From: Eunapius fragilis
Taxonomy: Eukaryota; Porifera; Demospongiae; Spongillida; Spongillidae
Direction of reading: 5' to 3'
Length of the DNA stretch: 64,000 bases
Assembly (NCBI GenBank): GCA_963681505.1
Contig: OY811984.1
Span: forward strand, 5,246,378-5,310,377
Below are positions 12,393-48,889 of this stretch, one piece after another (within the stretch, counting starts at the first letter, position 1; each line of letters begins with the position of its first letter). Below the pieces are notes generated by a model, which had not been told where the DNA came from, did no database searches, and saw nothing but the letters and a program-made list of their open reading frames with translations. Made by a program: the position numbers and the translations under genes.

Positions 12393-12397
12393 CACTT

Positions 12398-12412
12398 CAC
12401 AGTGGTTTAAGA
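12398..12412 (+). repeat. Left terminal inverted repeat of the RAG1/Transib-type element
   Basis: CACAGTGGTTTAAGA, identical in inverse to 15390-15404. At a 23-base spacing from the heptamer stands ACATTTTTG, which is not a convincing nonamer. Confidence 0.75.
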
Positions 12413-12612
12413 GTAGGGGTCATGATGACATTTTTGAATTAGAATAAATTTGTATTGGCATCATGTTGCATAATACCCATTAAATTAAATTTCATTAAAA
12501 TTAATCAAACCCACAAATTCAAGATTTTATAATCATGAAAATCCATATCAGGTAGTCCTTTTTTAAATTGCTACGTATAAAGAACAGTTCATGCATCATA
12601 ATTATACTGCTA

Positions 12613-14876
12613 TCAGTTTAGAAAGATAGGTGCTAAAAGGTGATCCTCAAATAAAAGGCAACTACTATGCATAACTTGCTTTCTTGGACAGGAACGAACA
12701 TTATGTTCTTCTCTACAGAATGAACATTTCACAACTTGACGGTGACACCTTATAATAGGATCTGATTTAATCCACAGCCTTGTCAAAACATCTGATAGAT
12801 TGGCACTCTGAGAAGTTTTTCTTGCCAAGCTCTCTCTGTACTTCAGTAGATTTTTATTATTATGCTCTAGAGGCTCTTCCGAAAATACACCAAGGCTTGT
12901 TGAGTCATTGGCATCAATCAAAGCAGCTGAGTGAGCCAGGAATTGATGCATGGAAGGAGTAAACCTGAAGGTGGGCCAATGCGTTACTAAGAAGTTTCTT
13001 TGCAAAGGTGATCTAGTTCTTCAGTGTTTACATTTTGTCTTGAGGACACTGATTTTATAAAATTACAGATAAGTTAGTAATAAACTCATTAAAAACGTTC
13101 CTATCACACCTTCCATCTTTTCTAGATTTTTCAGGAACACATTCAACCAGGACCTGGTGTTTCGCAGGATCAAACAAAAGATTTCGGGCTATGTTACTTG
13201 TAGTAGTACCACCAGCTCCAACTGGATCAGGTTTATCCACTGTCATTCCTGTCTTTGTCTTGATGTACTCTTGGACTTTTCTCTTTGCCACATCTACACG
13301 TTCCTTTTGTTTACTATTCTGTATCCATGCAGTCACACCAACTTTTAGTTACAATAATCGAGACCCCTCAACAACGCATGCAGTATGGGAAACGTTTGAA
13401 TGGCAAGGGTTGATATTGGACTCTGGGTTAGCCCATCATGTTCACTATAGTCTCCTCTGTTGCATTGTACTTCCCCATCAACTGCTAAATCATCATACAA
13501 GGCATGTAGAGCTTCAATATCTACATTTCCTATTTCAAAACCCTCCTTTATGTTATCCTCTTGAACAGCCTCTTCATCTGACTATGCACACATAATGCAG
13601 AATGCACTACCTCTTCTCAGTAGAAGCGTCTGCAACTTTCCATCATTCATTATTCGATGGAACTCAAGCATCAAATAAAATTCTATTTCCGCATCAAAAA
13701 CCTTTACACCACTGGACTGCAACTCCTTCATCTCAGCATCTACAGGGGGTAAAATCTTATGAAGTAGATCTTTGTCCTCTTTACCTAATACCAAGAGTAT
13801 TGGTCTAGCTGCATCAGGACTGCTTGGAGATGGTTCTTTCCAGATTATGTCATGCCCATTGGCACTTGTACTTATACTTGGTAGACTTGATCAGCATTCA
13901 CTACAGGGACATCCTTATAAACCTCTAAAGCCACCCACATCCACATAATCATGCTATGCGTTTGCACATTCCCCTAGCCTTTTGGTCATATACACTATGC
14001 CTTCCTGATCCTCCTTTACTGTCATGGTGTACTTACAAGGTTGCAAACCAAGCCACTGTATCAACCTTTGGAAGTGCAGTTGTACAGACTCTTTGACACT
14101 GAAACACCAGGCAAAGGATGTAAAGGCTCTACCTTTGGCATTATGGTATCCTTATGCTGCATTAACCTGTAGTGCGGTGGTCACTCAACTCTGCTCTTTA
14201 GCTCTTGCATAAGACTACTGTACCCTGTACGTCCAAGCTTGTAAGTTGATAACATAAATAAACCTTCATCGAAACTTATATCTCTGGTGATTGTTTCTTT
14301 GTGAAACTGCTTCAGACCTATTGCTGCAACAGCTCTGTCATGGATGTAGTTTTCTCTATGAAGCAGAAACCCTAACAAGTGAGTTTTTGTTATCTTCTCC
14401 TCTTCTGCTTCCTCCTTCAGTAAAGAAAACAACGCATCCGTTCTTCTTTTAGTGTGACGAGGGGTTAGCTTGTCGAGTGGAGTGATTTTACTGGTACTCT
14501 CTTCATCTTGCACACCAACCACTTTGTTTCCATCACCTGAACTTCCAGCAACAGTTGGTTCGATACTTGCACTACCTCGAACACGATCGTGATCAGTACC
14601 GTTAGGTACAAAGAAGCTCTCTTGCTGGAATTTCAAAAAGGCCTTCTTTGTACAGTCGCTCTTCTGCCCTTTGGACAATCTAGCCCATTTACTCCTAAGG
14701 CTACGAATCCGATATATCCACTTATTAAGAACTCCAAGCTCGTCTGTGCCATTATCCAATCCTTCATCAAGCAGAAACCGTCTTGCTGCCTCAGTGTTAC
14801 ACTTGAACTTTGCTACATACCTTTCAAAGGCTTCTACATTTGTGATTCGTCCATCGTCGGCCATGGTAAATAGCAA
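12613..14876 (-). pseudogene. RAG1/Transib-like transposase, frameshifted
   Basis: Minus-strand pieces at 14876-14181, 13794-13582, 13336-13055 and 13005-12613 lie in different frames. The N-terminal 231 codons start MADDGRITNVEAF and show no RING finger. The middle piece has GKEDKDLLHKILPPVDAEM and MNDGKLQTLLLRRGSAFCIM, aligning by eye with the RAG1 block around its second catalytic Asp; the Asp codon is about 13644-13642. Then GGTTTSNIARNLL, like the N-x-N-x-A-R block. The last piece has SEEPLEHNNKNL, whose final Glu (about 12867-12865) sits where the third catalytic residue of RAG1 lies, followed by ARKTSQSANLSDVLTRLW and a CxxC...H...C knuckle. The first Asp block, expected near 13900, is destroyed. 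Confidence 0.7.
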
Positions 14877-15389
14877 GTTAAGTTACCTTTATTGATATTT
14901 TAACATCGTAAGTCGCTTGTGTTTATACCGTTTTAAAAATTCGAAAGTTTGATGCGGCAAAAAGCGGCATACTATATTAGATAGGTATCACATACCAGAA
15001 GCTTCGTGCTGTATTATTTAGTTATGGAAGGTCCTCCTATTTCGCCCGCGCGATCTCTTGTACGCTACATGTGGTTATATCACAATGTTTTTACAAGCAA
15101 TCTAACACATTGTGACCTGTTACGAGAATTAAAATATAATTGTACACGTACGAGGATGGTCAGAAATATCTATTATTTAGTGTCCATCATGCAGGGTTAT
15201 TTTTTTATGTCTATAACACTACAATACATTATCTCATAAAATTTACCAGTTTAATTACCTTGCACCAATTATTAAGACCTGTTGTTAGAAAATTATACAA
15301 TTCTTGACAATGAATTGTGATAGTTCAGGCATTTAACTAACAGTTTATGCAATAAAATCTAAATTTCATACCCGGACCTCATGTCATGG

Positions 15390-15404
15390 TCTTAAACCAC
15401 TGTG
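15390..15404 (-). repeat. Right terminal inverted repeat of the RAG1/Transib-type element
   Basis: Inverse of the left terminus. On the minus strand the heptamer is preceded by CA (CACACAGTGG), which displaces the presumed target duplication by two bases. Confidence 0.7.
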
Positions 15405-15435
15405 TGCACTTTTGGCTAGCGAAGTTGTTTTTGTC

Positions 15436-33362: not shown

Positions 33363-33740
33363 ACAATACATTTTGTATGCGTAGGATTGATACACACTAG
33401 TGCATAGCTCTATATAATGTAAAAGTGATTGCTACCAGCTATAAAGTCACGGAGGAGGCCTTTTTTTTACGTACCTGAATATTGCCCTTACTAGTACCCT
33501 CTTGGTGGTGTGGCGCCGGTAAACTCACCAGTTTAATAGCGTCGGGCGTTGATGCGTGTGCCTACTCGATACTACATGGTTACCTTATCACTTGCTTATT
33601 TGTATTACCTGAATCAGCTGGTGACGTGTAGTTAAGCTTTTCAATTTGATTCCACTATCGTATGCGCCACTCTGTGAAATCATAGAAAGTGATGTTTTCC
33701 GCTATGGTGCTCGTTATTTCGAGTTTCACGTAATAGCGTC

Positions 33741-35341
33741 ATGGAAAAAAAGATAAAGAAATTCCTCAGTGTTTCAGAACGATTGAAGTTGGTGGATGAA
33801 ATCAAGCTTGGTAAGCCAGTTAAGGATGTGGCTAGGGATTTTGGTGTGAGCAAAGCTCAGGCGTACAAAGTATTCAAATCCAAAGACGACCTGATTAAGT
33901 TAGTAGACTCTGGCTCGGTCCCTCTTCAGTCGAAGATGGTAGTGAATAAATCAAAACATAAGGAGATCGACGAAGCCGTCTTTGAATGGTTTTGCTCCTT
34001 GCGAACATTCAATGGTACCAGGAAACCCTTACCTGTATCTCGAGGATTGATACGTGCGAAAGCCACGTACGAGGCCAAGAAGAGAGGGATAGCTGGTTTT
34101 GTTGCGTCAAATGGCTGGATTAGCAACTGGCGATGGCGTTATGGGGTGTCCCGTTCTACGCGGCTTGTGGGAGAAGCGGGTGAGGTGGACATCAATATAG
34201 CTGATGAGAAAGTAGAGATCCTACGTAGTTCTCTCTCCATATATGATCCCAACAATGTTTAAAACATGGATGAACTAGGTCTATTTTACAAAGCTATCCC
34301 ACAATATAGTTATTTGCTTTAGTCTGAAGGAGATAAGAGGCAGCATGGCCGGGGCACAAAGAAAATGAAGGCAAAGATCGCCTGACTGTGATATTATGTA
34401 CGAATGCCACTGGTACTGTTAAAGTATCCCCAGTTGTTGTAGGGTCAGCGAAGAAACCACGTTGTTTTTCAAATGCACCTCCATGCCTTCCATATTTTTC
34501 CCAAAGCAGCGCTTGGTGTGACAAAACCATATTGAGGAGGTGGTGGCATGAAGTATTCCTACCTGAAGTTCAAAAGCTAACATCCGAACCTATTGCTCTT
34601 GTATTGGATGGTTTTAGTGGCCACGATGAAGGTTGTGATGATCCCCTTAAGCAAGCAAAAATATTTAAATTCCCCCCTAATGTTACTAGCATATACCAAC
34701 CATTAGATCAAGGCATAATTGCAGCCTTGAAAGTTCGGTATAAGGGTAGCCTTTTAGCTAAACTTGTTGAGACGGATGCGGATATTTGTCGGCTACAATC
34801 TTTAGCACAGCAACTTCCTGCAGGATGTGCAGGATTAAAGTATGGCGCTCCACCGCATGTAGGAGATGCTCTTGTTCTACTTAAAGATGCATGGGACAAC
34901 ATCTCGTCGTCAACCATTGCAGCTTGCTGGAGGCACTCTCGATGTCTTTCACTGCTTCAGTAAAATGATGCTGCAAGTCGCAGTGATTATAATAAGCGCA
35001 TTGAAAACGATGCAGTGTATGATATGTGCCAACAGCTGTGTAGCTTGAAGCTTTCTTCAAACTTGCTATCATCAATGGGGCTAGACGCTCATAAAACTGA
35101 CTTGGAAAATGCTTCTATGACAATGCTAGCTAAATGGATGCATGTTGAAGAACAGGGCATAGATGTAGATGAAGATCAGTTGTGCATGGATGAAGAGGTA
35201 CAGACACAGGAAAAGGTGTCACTTCTAACTAATGCACTCAAGCATGTGAACGAATTACATTTAGTTGGTGTGAAACTGAATGACACTAAGATAATGGAAA
35301 CTGCCAGACAATTGTGTTTGTATGTGCACGATTCTATTTAG
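33741..35341 (+). pseudogene. pogo/Tigger-like transposase, degenerate
   Basis: The first piece (33741-34262, 173 codons) starts MEKKIKKFLSVSERLKLVDE, with a psq-type helix-turn-helix (KDVARDFGVSKAQAYKVFKS) and a CENP-B-type second DNA-binding region (ISNWRWRYGVS). After a stop, MDELGLFYKAIPQYSY contains the first catalytic Asp (34265 on). The piece 34388-34963 has a second Asp in ALVLDGFSGHD and a third in SIYQPLDQGIIAALK. The tail 35015-35341 is acidic. Stops at 34260-34262 and 34318-34320 and several frame changes inactivate it. It sits between the TIRs in the expected orientation. Confidence 0.85.
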
Positions 35342-40744: not shown

Positions 40745-41104
40745 ATGTCCAAACCCTTGCTCCTACCTGAGCCCTACGGAGGCGAAGCGGGTGGCTGGGC
40801 GGAATGGGTAGACCATTTCGAGAACGTAGCCACTGTCAACAAGTGGGCCACTGGTGAGGAGAAATTAAAATGGCTGAAGGTGCGTCTAACTGGGAAGGCT
40901 CAGACAGCGTTCAAGAAGTTGCCACAAGATGTGAAAGAAAACTACGGTGAGTGCATAAAATCCTTACAGCGCCGTTTTGACCCTGACAGTAAGAAGCAAC
41001 TCTACGTGGCCGAGTTAAGTGCCAGAACGAGGCGAAAGGACGAAGACTCAGTGGGCTACTTTCGGCGACGTATTGAGAGTTCTTGCGGACAAAGCGTATC
41101 CTGA
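40745..41104 (+). CDS. gag: gag, N-terminal part
   Basis: From ATG 40745 (MSKPLLLPEPYGGEAGGW) the frame encodes a capsid-type gag start: WAEWVDHFENVATVNKW, then KWLKVRLTGKAQTAFKKLPQ and SLQRRFDPDSKKQLYVAELS. It runs to a stop at 41104 but overlaps the pol frame from 41019. Capsid homology crosses into the other frame around 41060-41080, a shift of +1 relative to this frame. This ATG, 30 bases past the LTR, is a better start than 40628, which lies within the LTR. A recent indel or assembly error is likelier than a programmed shift, because the break is in the middle of capsid. Confidence 0.85.
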   Translation: MSKPLLLPEPYGGEAGGWAEWVDHFENVATVNKWATGEEKLKWLKVRLTGKAQTAFKKLPQDVKENYGECIKSLQRRFDPDSKKQLYVAELSARTRRKDEDSVGYFRRRIESSCGQSVS

Positions 41105-44100
41105 CCTGGAGGAGAAGGCAAGAGAACGTCTTGCATTAAACCAGTTTTTGGCACAAATTGAAAACGCCCAAGTCGCTTTCGGCGTGAAGCAGAAACGACC
41201 CACCAACGTCGAGGAGGCCGTCGTCGCAACAATTGAATTAGAGTCGTACTTGGGAAGCTCCGGTAAGCCGCTGCGAGTGAGCGCTGTGTCCCCACAGGAA
41301 CCAGACCCAGATGTACGCGTACGCCGTGCAGACCGTGCTGAAGCTGTCGCAGCTGTCTCTCCACTTGATGAACCTCAGACGGTGAAGTTGCTTGGCGAGC
41401 GGCTACAACGGTTGGAGATGCTACTCGAGAGACAAGGGAGTTCCACAAGGCCTCGGACAAGTAAGCAAACCGGGGAGGCTGAGAGTGGGGAACGCAAGGC
41501 TGTAGTCTGTTGGACTTGTGGCAAGAAAGGCCATATTGCAAGAGTTTGTCGGAGTCGCGCAACAGAGCAGCATCAGGGAAGAAGACATGTAGAGGCTCAA
41601 ACTGATCAGTTGACTGTTCCTTCTCTTTCGGTAACTTGCGGGGTAAGTTACAGCGTAAAGGGAGTCATTGGGGTGGTAGCTATTGCATTCGTTGTTGATA
41701 CGGGAGCAGCTGTATCTCTTATCCGCAAGGATGTCTGGACACAACTTGTAAACAGGGACAGTACACTTGTTCTTGAACAGTGGTCTGGAAAAAAGCTTGT
41801 AGGGGTCAATGGGGCTTCATTGTCTATATGTGGGTGTGGAAACATACAGGTTTTGTTCAAGGGTACTCCATTTATGGTCACTTGCATTGTAACTGATGAC
41901 ATCACTATAGAGGCAATCCTTGGGTTGGATTTTTTGGAAGCTAATAGTTGTGTGATTGATTGTGGTCAGAAGGTACTCACATTCCCTTCCCAAAAGCTTT
42001 CAATTCCATTCTTAAGCAAAACCACCACAGAACAAGGAGTTGCAACTGTTGGACTGGTCCTAAAAGAGAAAACAGTTGTTCCAGCAGGAAGTGAAATGGA
42101 AGTTATGGTAAAAATTGCTGGTCCAGTCACTAATGGTACGTGGTTTGTAGGACACAAGTCAGCCACTTGTAAGGGTGTGATGGTGGCTAATGCAGTAGTG
42201 TCTCCAAGCAGTAATGTAGTACCAGTACGTATACTGAACCCACGTGATGAAATGGTGGTGCTGAAGAAAGGAACACAGATTGCAAGCATGGAGCTCCTGG
42301 AGCAAGATCCAGTTATCAACATATCTACAGTGATGAAGAATGCTGAAGTCTCACCGGAATGCCAGAGCATTTTATGGGATTTGGTGTCGAAGGTTGGGAA
42401 TCACATTAGTGAGAGTGAAAGAGAACAACTCTATTCTCTTCTTGTGGAGTTTGCCGATGTCTTTTCTTTCAGCAGCAAGGACTTGGGCCGCACTAAAGAG
42501 CTGAAGCATCATATTTTCACCAGTGATGCTCAACCAGTGCACCTATCTCCACGTCGTATTCCTCAGGCACGCAGGGAGGAGCTCCGAGGCTTGCTGAGGG
42601 ACATGCTGGAGAGTGATGTAATCCAACAGTCTGACAGCCCTTGGTCCTCACCTATAGTGTTAGCAAAGAAGCATGATGGGACAACACGATTTTGCGTAGA
42701 CTACAGGAAGGTAAACGAAGTAACAAGAAAAGATGCCTACCCACTACCTCGAGTGGACGACACTTTGGACACACTGGTTGGTTCTAAATTCTTCACCACA
42801 CTCGACCTTGCCAGTGGGTACTGGCAAGTGGAAGTGGCTCCCGAGGATCAACCTAAGACAGCCTTCACAACACCGGAAGGACTTTACCAATTCAAGGTAA
42901 TGCCATTTGGCTTATGTAACGCTCCAGCGACATTTCAGCGTTTAATGGATAGAGTCTTGAGTGGGTTAAAATGGTCGAGCTGTTTAGTGTATTTTGACGA
43001 TATAATTGTAGTAGGTACTACATTTCAGGAGCATTTGCATCACCTCACTAGTGTCTTCACTCGTCTGAGGGGGGCGGGTCTCAAGCTAAAACCAAAAAAG
43101 TGTACACTCTGCAGGCAGCAAGTAACATTTCTAGGCCATATAGTATCCACAGATGGTGTTGCAACAGATCCAAGCAAAACTGAGGCTGTGTCGAAGTGGT
43201 CCATTCCCCAGAACAGAAAAGAAGTTCAACAATTTTTGGGGCTAGCCAATTACTATAGGCGTTTTGTAAAAGACTTTGCCTTGATCTCAAAACCACTACA
43301 GCGGTTGACAGAGAAAAACGCACCTTTCGAATGGACCATTGGATGCCAAAACGCTTTTGATGAATTGCGTAAACGTTTGGTTTCTTCCCCAGTCCTTGCA
43401 TACCCAGATTATGAGCGACGTTTCATACTCGACACGGATGCAAGTGATGTTGGAATTGGTGCTGTGCTTTCACAGGTTAGTGATTGTGGTTCTGAGCGTG
43501 TTATTGCCTATGCGAGCAGATCGCTTACTAGGCCAGAGCAAAGGTATTGTGTAACACGTAAAGAATTATTAGCAGTTGTGGAATTTGTACATCATTTTAG
43601 ACAGTATCTCCTTGGGCGAGAATTCACCCTTCGAACTGACCATGGATCTCTGGTCTGGATCCGGAATTTTAAAGAACCGGAAGGTCAACTGGCTCGCTGG
43701 CTAGAGAGACTCCAGGAGTATAACTTCACCGTTGTGCACCGCCAAGGCTTGCGCCATTGCAACGCTGACGCCCTTTCCCGTGTCCCATGCAGGCAGTGCG
43801 GTAGGGACGAAGATATAGAATCGGAGAACACCGTCATGGTAGGAGTGGTTTCCAATCCGTTCCAGAAATATACTCCAGCTGAGATGAGGCAGATGCAACT
43901 GGACGACTCAACCATCCAACCTGTTCACTGTGCTGTATCTTGTGGTCAACCAACGAGCCCTGATATTGTTAAATCGTGGAGTCGAGGAAGTCGTCTCCTG
44001 ATGCAACACTGGGACGCCCTCTGCATTTATGATGGTATCCTGTGGAAGAAATGCGTGGATGGAAGTAGAAGATTCCAGCAGCTCGTTTTACCCGCGAAGT

Positions 44101-45374
44101 TACAAGTGGATGCTCTTCGCGATCTCCATCAAGGGGCTGTAGGCGGTCACATTGGAGAGGAGAAGATGAAACACAGACTGAAAGAGCGGTTTTACTGGCC
44201 AGGATGTACAGAAGCAGTTGGGGAGTGGTGTAGGAACTGCAGAAGCTGCACCACGAGGAAGACGGTTGCCCCAAAGAGAAGGGCTCCTCTGCAAACCATT
44301 AAGGCTGGGTACCCGATGCAAATCGTGAGTGTAGATTTAATGGGCCCCCTTCCCGAGACTGAGGATGGCTGTAAGTATGTCATGGTAGCTATGGACTGTT
44401 TTACCCGGTGGGTAGAAGTGTATGCTATACGGAACCAGGAGGCCACAACTGTTGCTAAAAAACTTGTTGATGAAATGTTCTGCCGTTTTTCTCCTCCAGA
44501 ACAGCTCCACAGCGACCAGGGACGACAGTTTGAGTCAGATTTGGTGAAGGAGATATGCGAACTGTTGCAGATCAGAAAAACGCGCACCACGCCATACCAC
44601 CCACAGTGCAATGGAATGGTGGAGCGGTTCAATCGGACTCTATTGGACATGCTTTCCACCGCAGTCGGCAACAATCAAGCTGATTGGCAGCAGCACATAC
44701 GTAAACTTTGTCTGGCTTACAACTCTAGCGTCCATTCCTCCACAGGATTTACTCCGTTCTTCTTGATGTTCGGGCGCCAGGCGAAGCTACCGATCGACCT
44801 GATGTACGGCACTAATCAGATGGAGCCGAACACTACCTCCGAGTATGCACGCTGCTTGAAAGACGCCTTGCAAGAAGCATACGCACTGGTGAGGGAGCGC
44901 TGTCAGGCCGAACATAAAAGGCAGAAAGAGCTGTATGACCAAAAAGTGCATGGGAAGCCATTTAGCCCGGGCGAGTTGGTGTGGTTACACTCCACAGCTG
45001 TTCCTCGTGGTCGATCCAGAAAGCTACACCATCCTTGGAAAGGACCCTTTAAGGTCATGGAACGACTGGGCGAGACCACGTACAAAATCAAAAACCTTCA
45101 AGGTCGGAGGAAAACAACATTTGTTCATTTTGACAGGCTCAAGCCGTGTGTAATATCCGATGACAAGCCAGAGAACACAGGGTCCAGAGAACAAGAACCA
45201 GTTGGTACAAATCTGGATCTGGTTGACAGCGATGACGATGATCCAGTACAGCAAGAAGAGGCAGCAGTCCCAGAAATTGCGAACCCACCTGTACCACCCT
45301 TAAATGAACAACGCCGATACCCCGTGCGAGATAGACAACGCACACAGCGCTATGGAATATATGTGGAACACTAA
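41019..45374 (+). CDS. pol: gag C-terminus plus pol polyprotein (PR-RT-RH-INT)
   Basis: 1451 codons. Order and approximate residues: rest of capsid (10-80); CCHC knuckle CWTCGKKGHIARVC (164-177); protease VVDTGAAVS (about 228); reverse transcriptase with FCVDYRKVNEV (about 557) and active-site YFDD (658-661; YFDD in place of the commoner YVDD/YLDD); RNase H DTDASDVGIGAV (about 805) and RTDHGSLVWI; integrase HHCC zinc finger (about 1036-1080); DDE core with VDLMGPLP (1105), HSDQGRQF (1165) and MVERFNRTL (1201); C-terminal GPF motif WKGPFKV (about 1340). All catalytic residues appear intact. The first Met codon is inside the overlap and is not the true translation start. Confidence 0.95.
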   Translation: MPERGERTKTQWATFGDVLRVLADKAYPDLEEKARERLALNQFLAQIENAQVAFGVKQKRPTNVEEAVVATIELESYLGSSGKPLRVSAVSPQEPDPDVRVRRADRAEAVAAVSPLDEPQTVKLLGERLQRLEMLLERQGSSTRPRTSKQTGEAESGERKAVVCWTCGKKGHIARVCRSRATEQHQGRRHVEAQTDQLTVPSLSVTCGVSYSVKGVIGVVAIAFVVDTGAAVSLIRKDVWTQLVNRDSTLVLEQWSGKKLVGVNGASLSICGCGNIQVLFKGTPFMVTCIVTDDITIEAILGLDFLEANSCVIDCGQKVLTFPSQKLSIPFLSKTTTEQGVATVGLVLKEKTVVPAGSEMEVMVKIAGPVTNGTWFVGHKSATCKGVMVANAVVSPSSNVVPVRILNPRDEMVVLKKGTQIASMELLEQDPVINISTVMKNAEVSPECQSILWDLVSKVGNHISESEREQLYSLLVEFADVFSFSSKDLGRTKELKHHIFTSDAQPVHLSPRRIPQARREELRGLLRDMLESDVIQQSDSPWSSPIVLAKKHDGTTRFCVDYRKVNEVTRKDAYPLPRVDDTLDTLVGSKFFTTLDLASGYWQVEVAPEDQPKTAFTTPEGLYQFKVMPFGLCNAPATFQRLMDRVLSGLKWSSCLVYFDDIIVVGTTFQEHLHHLTSVFTRLRGAGLKLKPKKCTLCRQQVTFLGHIVSTDGVATDPSKTEAVSKWSIPQNRKEVQQFLGLANYYRRFVKDFALISKPLQRLTEKNAPFEWTIGCQNAFDELRKRLVSSPVLAYPDYERRFILDTDASDVGIGAVLSQVSDCGSERVIAYASRSLTRPEQRYCVTRKELLAVVEFVHHFRQYLLGREFTLRTDHGSLVWIRNFKEPEGQLARWLERLQEYNFTVVHRQGLRHCNADALSRVPCRQCGRDEDIESENTVMVGVVSNPFQKYTPAEMRQMQLDDSTIQPVHCAVSCGQPTSPDIVKSWSRGSRLLMQHWDALCIYDGILWKKCVDGSRRFQQLVLPAKLQVDALRDLHQGAVGGHIGEEKMKHRLKERFYWPGCTEAVGEWCRNCRSCTTRKTVAPKRRAPLQTIKAGYPMQIVSVDLMGPLPETEDGCKYVMVAMDCFTRWVEVYAIRNQEATTVAKKLVDEMFCRFSPPEQLHSDQGRQFESDLVKEICELLQIRKTRTTPYHPQCNGMVERFNRTLLDMLSTAVGNNQADWQQHIRKLCLAYNSSVHSSTGFTPFFLMFGRQAKLPIDLMYGTNQMEPNTTSEYARCLKDALQEAYALVRERCQAEHKRQKELYDQKVHGKPFSPGELVWLHSTAVPRGRSRKLHHPWKGPFKVMERLGETTYKIKNLQGRRKTTFVHFDRLKPCVISDDKPENTGSREQEPVGTNLDLVDSDDDDPVQQEEAAVPEIANPPVPPLNEQRRYPVRDRQRTQRYGIYVEH

Positions 45375-47386: not shown

Positions 47387-48889
47387 ATGGAACGTCAGTA
47401 CCTCAAGTACTCTCATGAGAGTATGATAGCTGTTATAAAGGAAGTAAGAGAAGGTCACATGTCTAGGCATGCAGCATCAAAGGCCTATAGTGTACCACGA
47501 TCCACACTCTGTGACAAGTAGGACGGAAAGAGCCCAGAGGATCGAAAAATGGGTCCTAGTACTGTGTTGACAAAGGCTGAGGAAGCAATGCTAGCAGCAT
47601 TCTGTATCAAGTTTCTGAAATGTGGCTTCCCCATAATCGTCAGGATCTTTGTGATATTGTCGCCAAGGTCGTCAAGGCAGATAAACGCAGAAATCCATTT
47701 AAGGATGGCAGGCCAGGCTTTTGCTGGTTTCAGGGTTTTATGCGACAGAACCCTGAACTTACAGAACGATCTGCAGAAATGTTGACAGGGGTGAGGGCAG
47801 TTGTAACTGAAGCTGCCATTTGAAAATGGTTTCGTGACATCCAGACCTATATTGTGGAGGAGGAAGAAGCTGCAGATTTCTTGCAGGCTCCAGAACAAAT
47901 CTTCAACTTTGATGAGTCGAATTCTCTCCATGCCAGGAAGAAGGGGAATGTCCTGGGACCTGTAAACTATAAAAGCTTCTTACAAACATCAAAAGAAAAT
48001 GATAAAGAAGGCTTAACAGTACTGATGGGCTATTCTGCTGCAGGGAAAATGGCACCTCCTATAATAATACATGCACACAAGCAGCACATACCCCATGACA
48101 TAGCAGAGGCAGTTGAAGCTGTTGATCCTACTTGGGCAATTGGTAAGTCTGAGACAGGTTGGATGATGAGTGCTACCTTCTATGACTATATGTCGCAAGT
48201 TTTTGAGCCATGGCTTGTACAGAGCAACATCCCAAGGCCTGTCTTGGTATATGCTGATGGTCACAAGTCCCATCTTCCCCTGGAAGTGGCTGAATTCTGT
48301 ACATCAAAGGGTATTCTGCTTGTTGCTCTTTACCCTAATTCTACCCACTTGCTTCAACCACTTGATCTTTCAGTATTTAAGTCCCTTAGAGCTTGTGGGC
48401 CACTGCCAAAGGAAACACACTTGAACGAAAACATCAGCAAAAAAAGTTTTCCTACAGTCTTCAAGGGTGCTGTTGATCAGATAACCATTAGTACTGTTGT
48501 GAATGGCTTTAGGAAGTCAGGCCTTTACCCGCTGGATCCAGGAAAGGTAGATTATAGTAAGTGTGTTAGGGATCACCTACAACAAGAGTGTGAAGAAGCA
48601 GAACTGTCGTCTCCAGTTAGTGATCCAGCTGTATTTCGAATGAGGTGTGGCCTTTGCTTCTTGAAGAGCGTATAGGGCATACAAAGTTACAGCTGTTTGA
48701 GTCAGCTTATGGTGGGGAATGGCAAGGAGACATAGAAGACACATCACTTTACTTGCTGTGTCCTCTGCTAAAGAGATTGCAGAAGCATCAGTGGATGATG
48801 GTCCCTCAGGTGGAGGAGGTGATGGTCCCTCAGATGGAGGAAATGGTGATCCCTCAGGTGGAGGAAATGATGTTGATGACGATCCCTCA

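Follow-up and report, generated by a model that had tools for sequence, protein, structure and literature searches.

Transib is listed among the element families that are widely found in eukaryotes, and the ends of its described members and of its RAG relatives take several forms. Symmetric ends are attributed to most Transib families, and a difference of 4 bp to the two ends of the amphioxus element ProtoRAG, in the accessible part of PMC8289069; 12/23-like asymmetric ends are described for Drosophila Transib5 and for Anopheles Transib 2 and N1-N3 in that of PMC8355894. Tao et al. 2022 (PMC9435367) distinguish Subgroup I Transibs, with asymmetric ends, an alpha11-12 region, a CTT1 tail and a position nearer to RAG1L, from Subgroup II, with both kinds of ends, a lost alpha11-12 region and CTT2. 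The same authors describe Transib-like proteins in bacteria, fungi, plants and metazoans, ctenophores among them, and put forward horizontal transfer on a massive scale. How V(D)J recombination came by its 12/23 rule is an open question. Here we analyse a stretch of 64,000 nucleotides (the window; C14:5246378-5310377) from the freshwater demosponge Eunapius fragilis, a host that an earlier, sequence-only reading of the window had correctly guessed to be a sponge. The window contains what is very probably a decayed cut-and-paste DNA transposon of the Transib superfamily, and its relatives in the same genome have bipartite ends of two kinds. Coordinates without a contig are positions in the window.

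A genome-wide family with RAG-type heptamers

The element in the window is delimited by terminal inverted repeats that start with CACAGTG. Direct reading of the letters gives CACAGTGGTTTAAGA for the left repeat, which is the exact reverse complement of the right one over 15 bp. The ends of the family likewise begin with CAC within a heptamer that resembles the recombination signal sequence (RSS), as is characteristic of Transib. A search of the genome (218,937,333 bases in 24 contigs, denoted C) yielded at least 57 matches to the DNA (40 of 85 candidates scored) and at least 79 matches to the protein (57 of 290 candidates scored), fragments included in both counts. The pattern CACAGTGGTTTAAR followed by five bases and GACAT occurs 60 times in the genome and not once when reversed; these occurrences and the further copies take the observation in the window beyond chance.

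Exact target duplications of 5 bp, the length expected of a Transib, flank 26 of 31 end pairs (24 when homopolymers are excluded), which supports the 5-bp duplication named in the sequence-only reading. The 31 pairs come from three batches of 8 copies (6 exact), 3 copies (2 exact) and 20 pairs (18 exact). The batch of eight remained from 27 printed pairings after removal of 7 repeats of the same copy and 12 with an internal or chance end, and two of the 18 exact duplications in the batch of twenty sit within runs of G or C and are uninformative on length. The 24 duplicated words lean towards the palindrome CANTG, with C, A, T and G at positions 1, 2, 4 and 5 in 12, 13, 16 and 11 of them, respectively.

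Four further copies in subfamily B are 99.0-99.6% identical to the coding frame of the copy on C6, and the family has therefore moved recently. As separate observations, two loci of 5107-5108 bp, L023 (C9:8063039-8068146) and L028 (C9:2914044-2919150), contain by eye a reverse-transcriptase-like frame inside Transib ends, and their common right flank suggests a duplicated segment with a nested insertion. At L016 (C2:6210934 onward) a Transib N-terminal frame continues directly into a frame that by eye resembles a retroelement integrase.

Asymmetric ends with two fixed spacings

The ends are bipartite and asymmetric: the heptamer CACAGTG is followed by 12 bp at the gene-5' end or 22 bp at the gene-3' end, and then by a second box, GACAT. 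The offset between the two spacings is exactly 10 bp, and the values 12 and 22 themselves vary with the position chosen as the start of the box. Among 62 heptamer-like sites in the family loci and the window, 38 have GACAT between positions 8 and 45, starting at nucleotide 20 in 18 cases, at nucleotide 30 in another 18, and at 21 and 34 in one case each; the other 24 sites lack GACAT and look like chance or internal sites. Orientation was checked in ten copies (window, L009, L010, L013, L024, L026, L035, L037, L044 and L051), where all ends located are of the 20-type on the gene-5' side and of the 30-type on the gene-3' side.

The same two spacings dominate the genome as a whole. CACAGTGGTTTA followed by 0-30 bases and GACAT gives 234 matches, against 2 for the reversed control; spacing 12 accounts for 109 and spacing 22 for 110 of them, 219 together, each with zero counts in the control, and by subtraction the remaining 15 are spread over the other 29 of the 31 spacings. 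From the 219, a listing of 200 ends yields 48 convergent pairs whose members lie within 8 kb of each other, and 47 of these are 12/22, so that elements in the end pairs found carry one end of each kind. The single 22/22 pair (C5:11649951-11653998) has no duplication, its two flanks are reverse-complementary at 11 of 12 bases, and it looks like an inverted duplication of large size, or else an artefact of assembly, and not like an insertion. By the 8-kb criterion 104 listed ends are unpaired. Three of these, from one subfamily, were inspected: one faces a 12-type partner that contains a single mismatch, the two flanks being equal at 4 of 5 bases, and two are partnerless.

A RAG1-core-like transposase

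Open frames from Met are present on C6 (P0001, 784 residues), C9 (L035, 769 residues) and C2 (P0002, 730 residues); the C terminus of P0002 is unlike those of P0001 and L035, apparently owing to a frameshift. They represent three subfamilies with 64-67% pairwise identity in the core. The proportion of nonsynonymous differences among the three unbroken frames (pN) is 0.25-0.28 and that of synonymous differences (pS) is 0.78-0.80, the synonymous sites being saturated, so that no dS is given; a pN so far below pS indicates, at the sequence level, purifying selection on the protein.

In a search of the PDB, P0001 matches HzTransib (2e-27) and amphioxus RAG1L (2.5e-7) and nothing else up to E=1. 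A sponge-only profile likewise returns HzTransib (4.7e-30) and amphioxus RAG1L (4.9e-13), with vertebrate RAG1 unlisted at E<=1, and vertebrate RAG1 is reached at 3.3e-34, partly by construction, once HzTransib and amphioxus RAG1L are included in the profile. Among the columns without variation in HzTransib, amphioxus RAG1L and the three sponge proteins are D403, E669, C418/C421 and H642/H647, and D290 of the sponge protein aligns with an Asp of HzTransib, RAG1L and mouse RAG1. We take D290, D403, E669, C418/C421 and H642/H647 to be D600, D708, E962, C727/C730 and H937/H942 of mouse RAG1. As shown by alignment with the solved structures, the relatives of the window copy encode an unbroken transposase homologous to the RAG1 core, with the DDE triad and the zinc C2H2 residues of a Transib; the window copy is without the first Asp.

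P0001 and P0002 have no Cys in their first 200 residues, and the N-terminal zinc motifs of RAG1 are thus missing. The first 200 residues of P0001 have no significant PDB match and those of P0001 and L035 no Pfam match; an N-terminal nonamer-binding domain, sought in these searches, is unsupported. Scans of bacterial and archaeal genome contigs and of viral contigs, with two short peptide patterns per scan taken from sponge-only and mixed alignments, found no relatives. The Pfam model of RAG2 (PF03089) has no match in the sponge genome at E<=0.001, a weak negative, as the control also matched nowhere. The three copies with both ends (window, L009 and L010; 2.8-3.1 kb) have less than about 1 kb outside the gene, and hence too little room for a RAG2-like kelch gene. 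Further RAG1-like genes may exist elsewhere in this genome.

The window copy and its surroundings

The pieces of one gene follow each other on the minus strand from 14864 down to 12613 and carry, in this order, MNDGKL...CIMC, GGTTTSNIAR, SEEPLEHNNK and the knuckle CSFCREEHNVRSC (Table 1). The sequence-only reading had described the exact 15-bp inverse ends with CACAGTG, the CACTT flanks with a TG offset on the right, and the ordered blocks of a frameshifted minus-strand gene, including N-x-A-R, and we find each of them at the positions listed. In an alignment with its relative L010, the window copy matches at 2620 of 2734 aligned bases, several gaps disrupt the reading frame of its coding region, and the first catalytic Asp has been lost to a 10-bp deletion near 14012. 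Judged by these lesions, the copy is dead and incapable of making a working enzyme. Its pieces can still be recognized in PDB searches: 12616-13020 alone matches HzTransib at 1.6e-8 and amphioxus RAG1L at 0.0044, and the middle piece matches HzTransib at 2.3e-4 when Tyr is put in place of one stop. Single-sequence fold predictions of two window pieces were poor (predicted local distance difference test, pLDDT, 41 and 34).

Table 1 Features of the probable Transib element in the 64,000-nucleotide window
Feature	Start	End	Strand	Remarks
Transib-type transposon (probable), inactive	12398	15404	-	3007 bp; gene on minus strand; basis: ends, genome relatives, deletion, PDB matches
Target-site word CACTT, left copy	12393	12397		
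Gene-3' terminal inverted repeat	12398	12412	+	15 bp, same as opposite end; heptamer CACAGTG 12398-12404
GACAT second box, gene-3' end	12427	12431	+	22 bp past heptamer
C-terminal transposase piece	12613	13020	-	two zinc His, final Glu, zinc knuckle; SEEPLEHNNK, then CSFCREEHNVRSC
C-terminal zinc knuckle CSFCREEHNVRSC	12688	12726	-	Cx2Cx3Hx4C
Final catalytic Glu codon (SEEPLE)	12865	12867	-	in relatives aligned to HzTransib and amphioxus RAG1L
Transposase piece with GGTTTSNIAR block	13055	13348	-	
Transposase piece with stretch from zinc Cys pair to LHA	13345	13581	-	spans stretch that is shorter in HzTransib
Transposase piece with MNDGKL...CIMC	13582	13890	-	second catalytic Asp (codon 13642-13644), zinc CxxC
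Transposase piece with 10-bp deletion	13954	14151	-	deletion near 14012; first catalytic Asp lost
N-terminal transposase piece	14181	14864	-	starts at Met codon 14862-14864
GACAT second box, gene-5' end	15381	15385	-	12 bp past heptamer
Gene-5' terminal inverted repeat	15390	15404	-	heptamer CACAGTG 15398-15404
Target-site word CACTT, right copy	15407	15411		preceded by extra TG 15405-15406

Three other elements lie in the window: a Ty3/Gypsy-type retrotransposon frame at 41019-45371 (RVT_1 1.5e-37, RNase H, integrase), a Tc5/pogo-type transposase remnant at 33693-34960 (HTH_Tnp_Tc5 1.2e-8, DDE_1 4.9e-35) and a second such remnant at 47824-48672 (DDE_1 1.2e-13).

Discussion

RAG and HzTransib nick DNA 5' of the heptamer, form hairpins on the flanks and insert with a 5-bp stagger. 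By analogy with this chemistry, the sponge transposase would nick at the heptamer, hairpins would form on the DNA flanking the nicked element, and the excised element would be inserted with a 5-bp stagger. A 12-type end and a 22-type end may be kept together in a mixed synapse with the help of the GACAT box, and binding of the ends may be assisted by the C-terminal knuckle. An offset fixed at roughly one turn of the helix, together with one-of-each pairing, suggests that the active complex holds a 12-type and a 22-type end. That a RAG2-free transposase enforces a strict 12/22 mixed-end rule on CACAGTG ends in a sponge is, however, a tentative proposal, which we consider possible rather than probable.

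Several points weigh against our interpretation of the element as a Transib and of its ends. The duplication of the window copy is imperfect, and because of the TG offset on its right side this copy stands outside the set of exact duplications; besides it, no exact duplication flanks four other pairs, namely the one on C16 (L051), those at C1:24.18 Mb and C2:2224086, and the 22/22 pair on C5, and in one additional pair the duplication differs at one of five bases. The sponge proteins have no significant match to a Pfam or NCBIfam model, and the Pfam model of RAG1 has no match in the genome at E<=0.001, again a weak negative with a control that matched nowhere. A tree of six sequences that has no root is no proof that the sponge proteins belong within the Transib clade. 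The copy on C6 that holds the 784-residue frame has one changed base in its 3' heptamer and is perhaps no longer fully mobile. Activity, synapsis of mixed ends and a role for GACAT are what we infer from the DNA, and the strict pairing could in part stem from whole-element copying or common descent of the copies.

We judge it improbable that the family is a ProtoRAG-type RAG1L-RAG2L transposon without RAG2L, or a branch closer to RAG1L than classical Transib. Such an origin would account for the distance from the zinc Cys pair to LHA, a stretch of 67 residues in the sponge protein, 63 in mouse RAG1 and 59 in amphioxus RAG1L, unlike the approximately 28 of HzTransib. The 67-residue stretch is, however, without sequence similarity to RAG1 or RAG1L (p 0.19-0.71, against p below 0.0005 for the mouse-amphioxus positive control), and its homology to alpha11-12 of RAG1 has no sequence support; compared with the short HzTransib stretch, p is 0.04, 0.28 and 0.18. 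The CCHC knuckle at the C terminus and the asymmetric ends, similar to those of RAG elements, are also in keeping with a RAG origin. The unrooted tree is compatible with a branch between HzTransib and the RAG pair, as it is with a family beside HzTransib, but it joins amphioxus RAG1L and mouse RAG1 with support 1.0 and leaves HzTransib and the sponge proteins outside, so that placement inside the pair is ruled out for the sequences sampled. Furthermore, the sponge proteins are 28-30% identical to HzTransib, as opposed to 23-25% for amphioxus RAG1L and 19-20% for the mouse RAG1 core; P0001 and P0002 lack N-terminal Cys residues, the genome gave no RAG2 match in the search whose control also failed, and the copy on C6 has just about 0.4 kb between gene and 3' end, with about 2.1 kb, partly read, on the opposite side. 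An origin in another DDE superfamily (hAT, Chapaev/CMC), with ends that begin with CAC by coincidence, hardly deserves credence: ends starting with CA occur in several superfamilies, and a RAG1 Pfam match is missing, but 5-bp duplications are, as far as we know, unlike the lengths found in hAT and Chapaev/CMC, and HzTransib and RAG1L are the only significant PDB matches.

A further alternative is compatible with Transib and concerns the pairing alone, namely that the 12/22 arrangement is an accident of descent and the spacing functionless; in our estimate its chance of being right falls somewhat short of even. All copies are related and their spacers are conserved within subfamilies, as descent would predict. 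Against this, spacer sequences differ among seven hand-picked representative end pairs, yet GACAT is always at 20 and 30. The bases preceding GACAT are the same at both element ends over 4-6 positions in five of these seven pairs, and over only 2 positions in the other two. Moreover, 34 of the 48 convergent pairs span just 983-1915 bp, in which the gene would not fit, and every one of them retains an end of each kind, while the proteins of the three subfamilies are merely 64-67% identical in their cores.

Returning to the Transib interpretation, the matches to HzTransib and RAG1L support the RAG1/Transib lineage named in the sequence-only reading. The best match to HzTransib, the position outside the RAG pair, the absence of N-terminal Cys in P0001 and P0002 and the lack of room for RAG2 in the three copies with both ends narrow it, at the level of sequence, to Transib. 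The sponge family possibly belongs to Subgroup I; its asymmetric ends fit that group but do not discriminate alone, since Subgroup II has both kinds (PMC9435367). It is a real, recently mobile family, new within a known kind. The suggested bearing on the antiquity of the RAG lineage in animals does not follow: Transib-like proteins are widespread and horizontal transfer has been proposed for them (PMC9435367), and the sponge family therefore does not date that lineage.

The principle of such ends is not new, as 12/23-like ends in a few insect Transibs are in print (PMC8355894, accessible part); added here are genome-wide strictness, GACAT as the second box, an offset of 10 bp and a sponge as host. 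Literature searches, which covered mostly titles and the openings of abstracts and did not reach subscription papers or Repbase, turned up no sponge Transib described with such ends. The interest of the family lies in the combination of an exact RSS heptamer, two fixed spacings 10 bp apart at more than 200 ends, and unbroken transposases; since it still encodes the latter, a preference of the enzyme for mixed ends is directly testable. Were the 12/22 rule enforced, 12/23 logic would be an enforced trait of Transibs that lack RAG2, in an early-branching animal, and would not have been invented by V(D)J recombination or by the RAG1-RAG2 pair.

Comparison with known systems

HzTransib from Helicoverpa zea (PDB code 6pqn) shares with the sponge family a RAG1-core-like transposase with aligned D, D, E and zinc C2H2 residues and the GTT..GN.AR block. 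It differs in sequence (28-30% identity), in a stretch that measures about 28 residues as against 67 in the sponge protein, and in its ends, which are described as symmetric in the accessible part of PMC8289069. The Drosophila Transib5 and Anopheles elements are closer in their ends, with asymmetry, an RSS-like heptamer and spacer lengths near 12 and 23 bp; going by the description in the accessible part of PMC8355894, they are set apart by a nonamer-like second element, in place of which the sponge ends have GACAT at an offset of exactly 10. Compared by description, Subgroup I Transibs (PMC9435367) resemble the sponge family in asymmetric ends and, as far as length goes, in a longer zinc-binding region, and they have a C-terminal tail motif that the sponge knuckle matches in part.

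The sequence-only reading had likened the C-terminal knuckle to that of invertebrate RAG1L. A knuckle is present, but the likeness is incomplete: with Cx2Cx3Hx4C it is one residue shorter than the CTT1 motif of RAG1L, Cx2Cx3GHx4C, as given in the accessible part of PMC7204232, and is without the G before H. Amphioxus ProtoRAG (RAG1L, PDB code 6b40) has the 5-bp duplication, CAC ends and core homology in common with the sponge elements, as well as asymmetric bipartite ends (27/31; PMC8289069, accessible part). ProtoRAG differs in having RAG2L, in identity (23-25%), and in its second element and offset. The signals of vertebrate RAG1/RAG2, as far as the sources consulted describe them, have the same heptamer consensus, CACAGTG, and a second box at 12 bp or approximately one helical turn more. 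In the sponge the box is GACAT and not ACAAAAACC, the offset is 10 and not 11, identity to the mouse RAG1 core is 19-20%, and the search for RAG2, a weak one, found none; what the two systems have in common is the heptamer and a second box placed at either of two distances about one turn of the helix apart.

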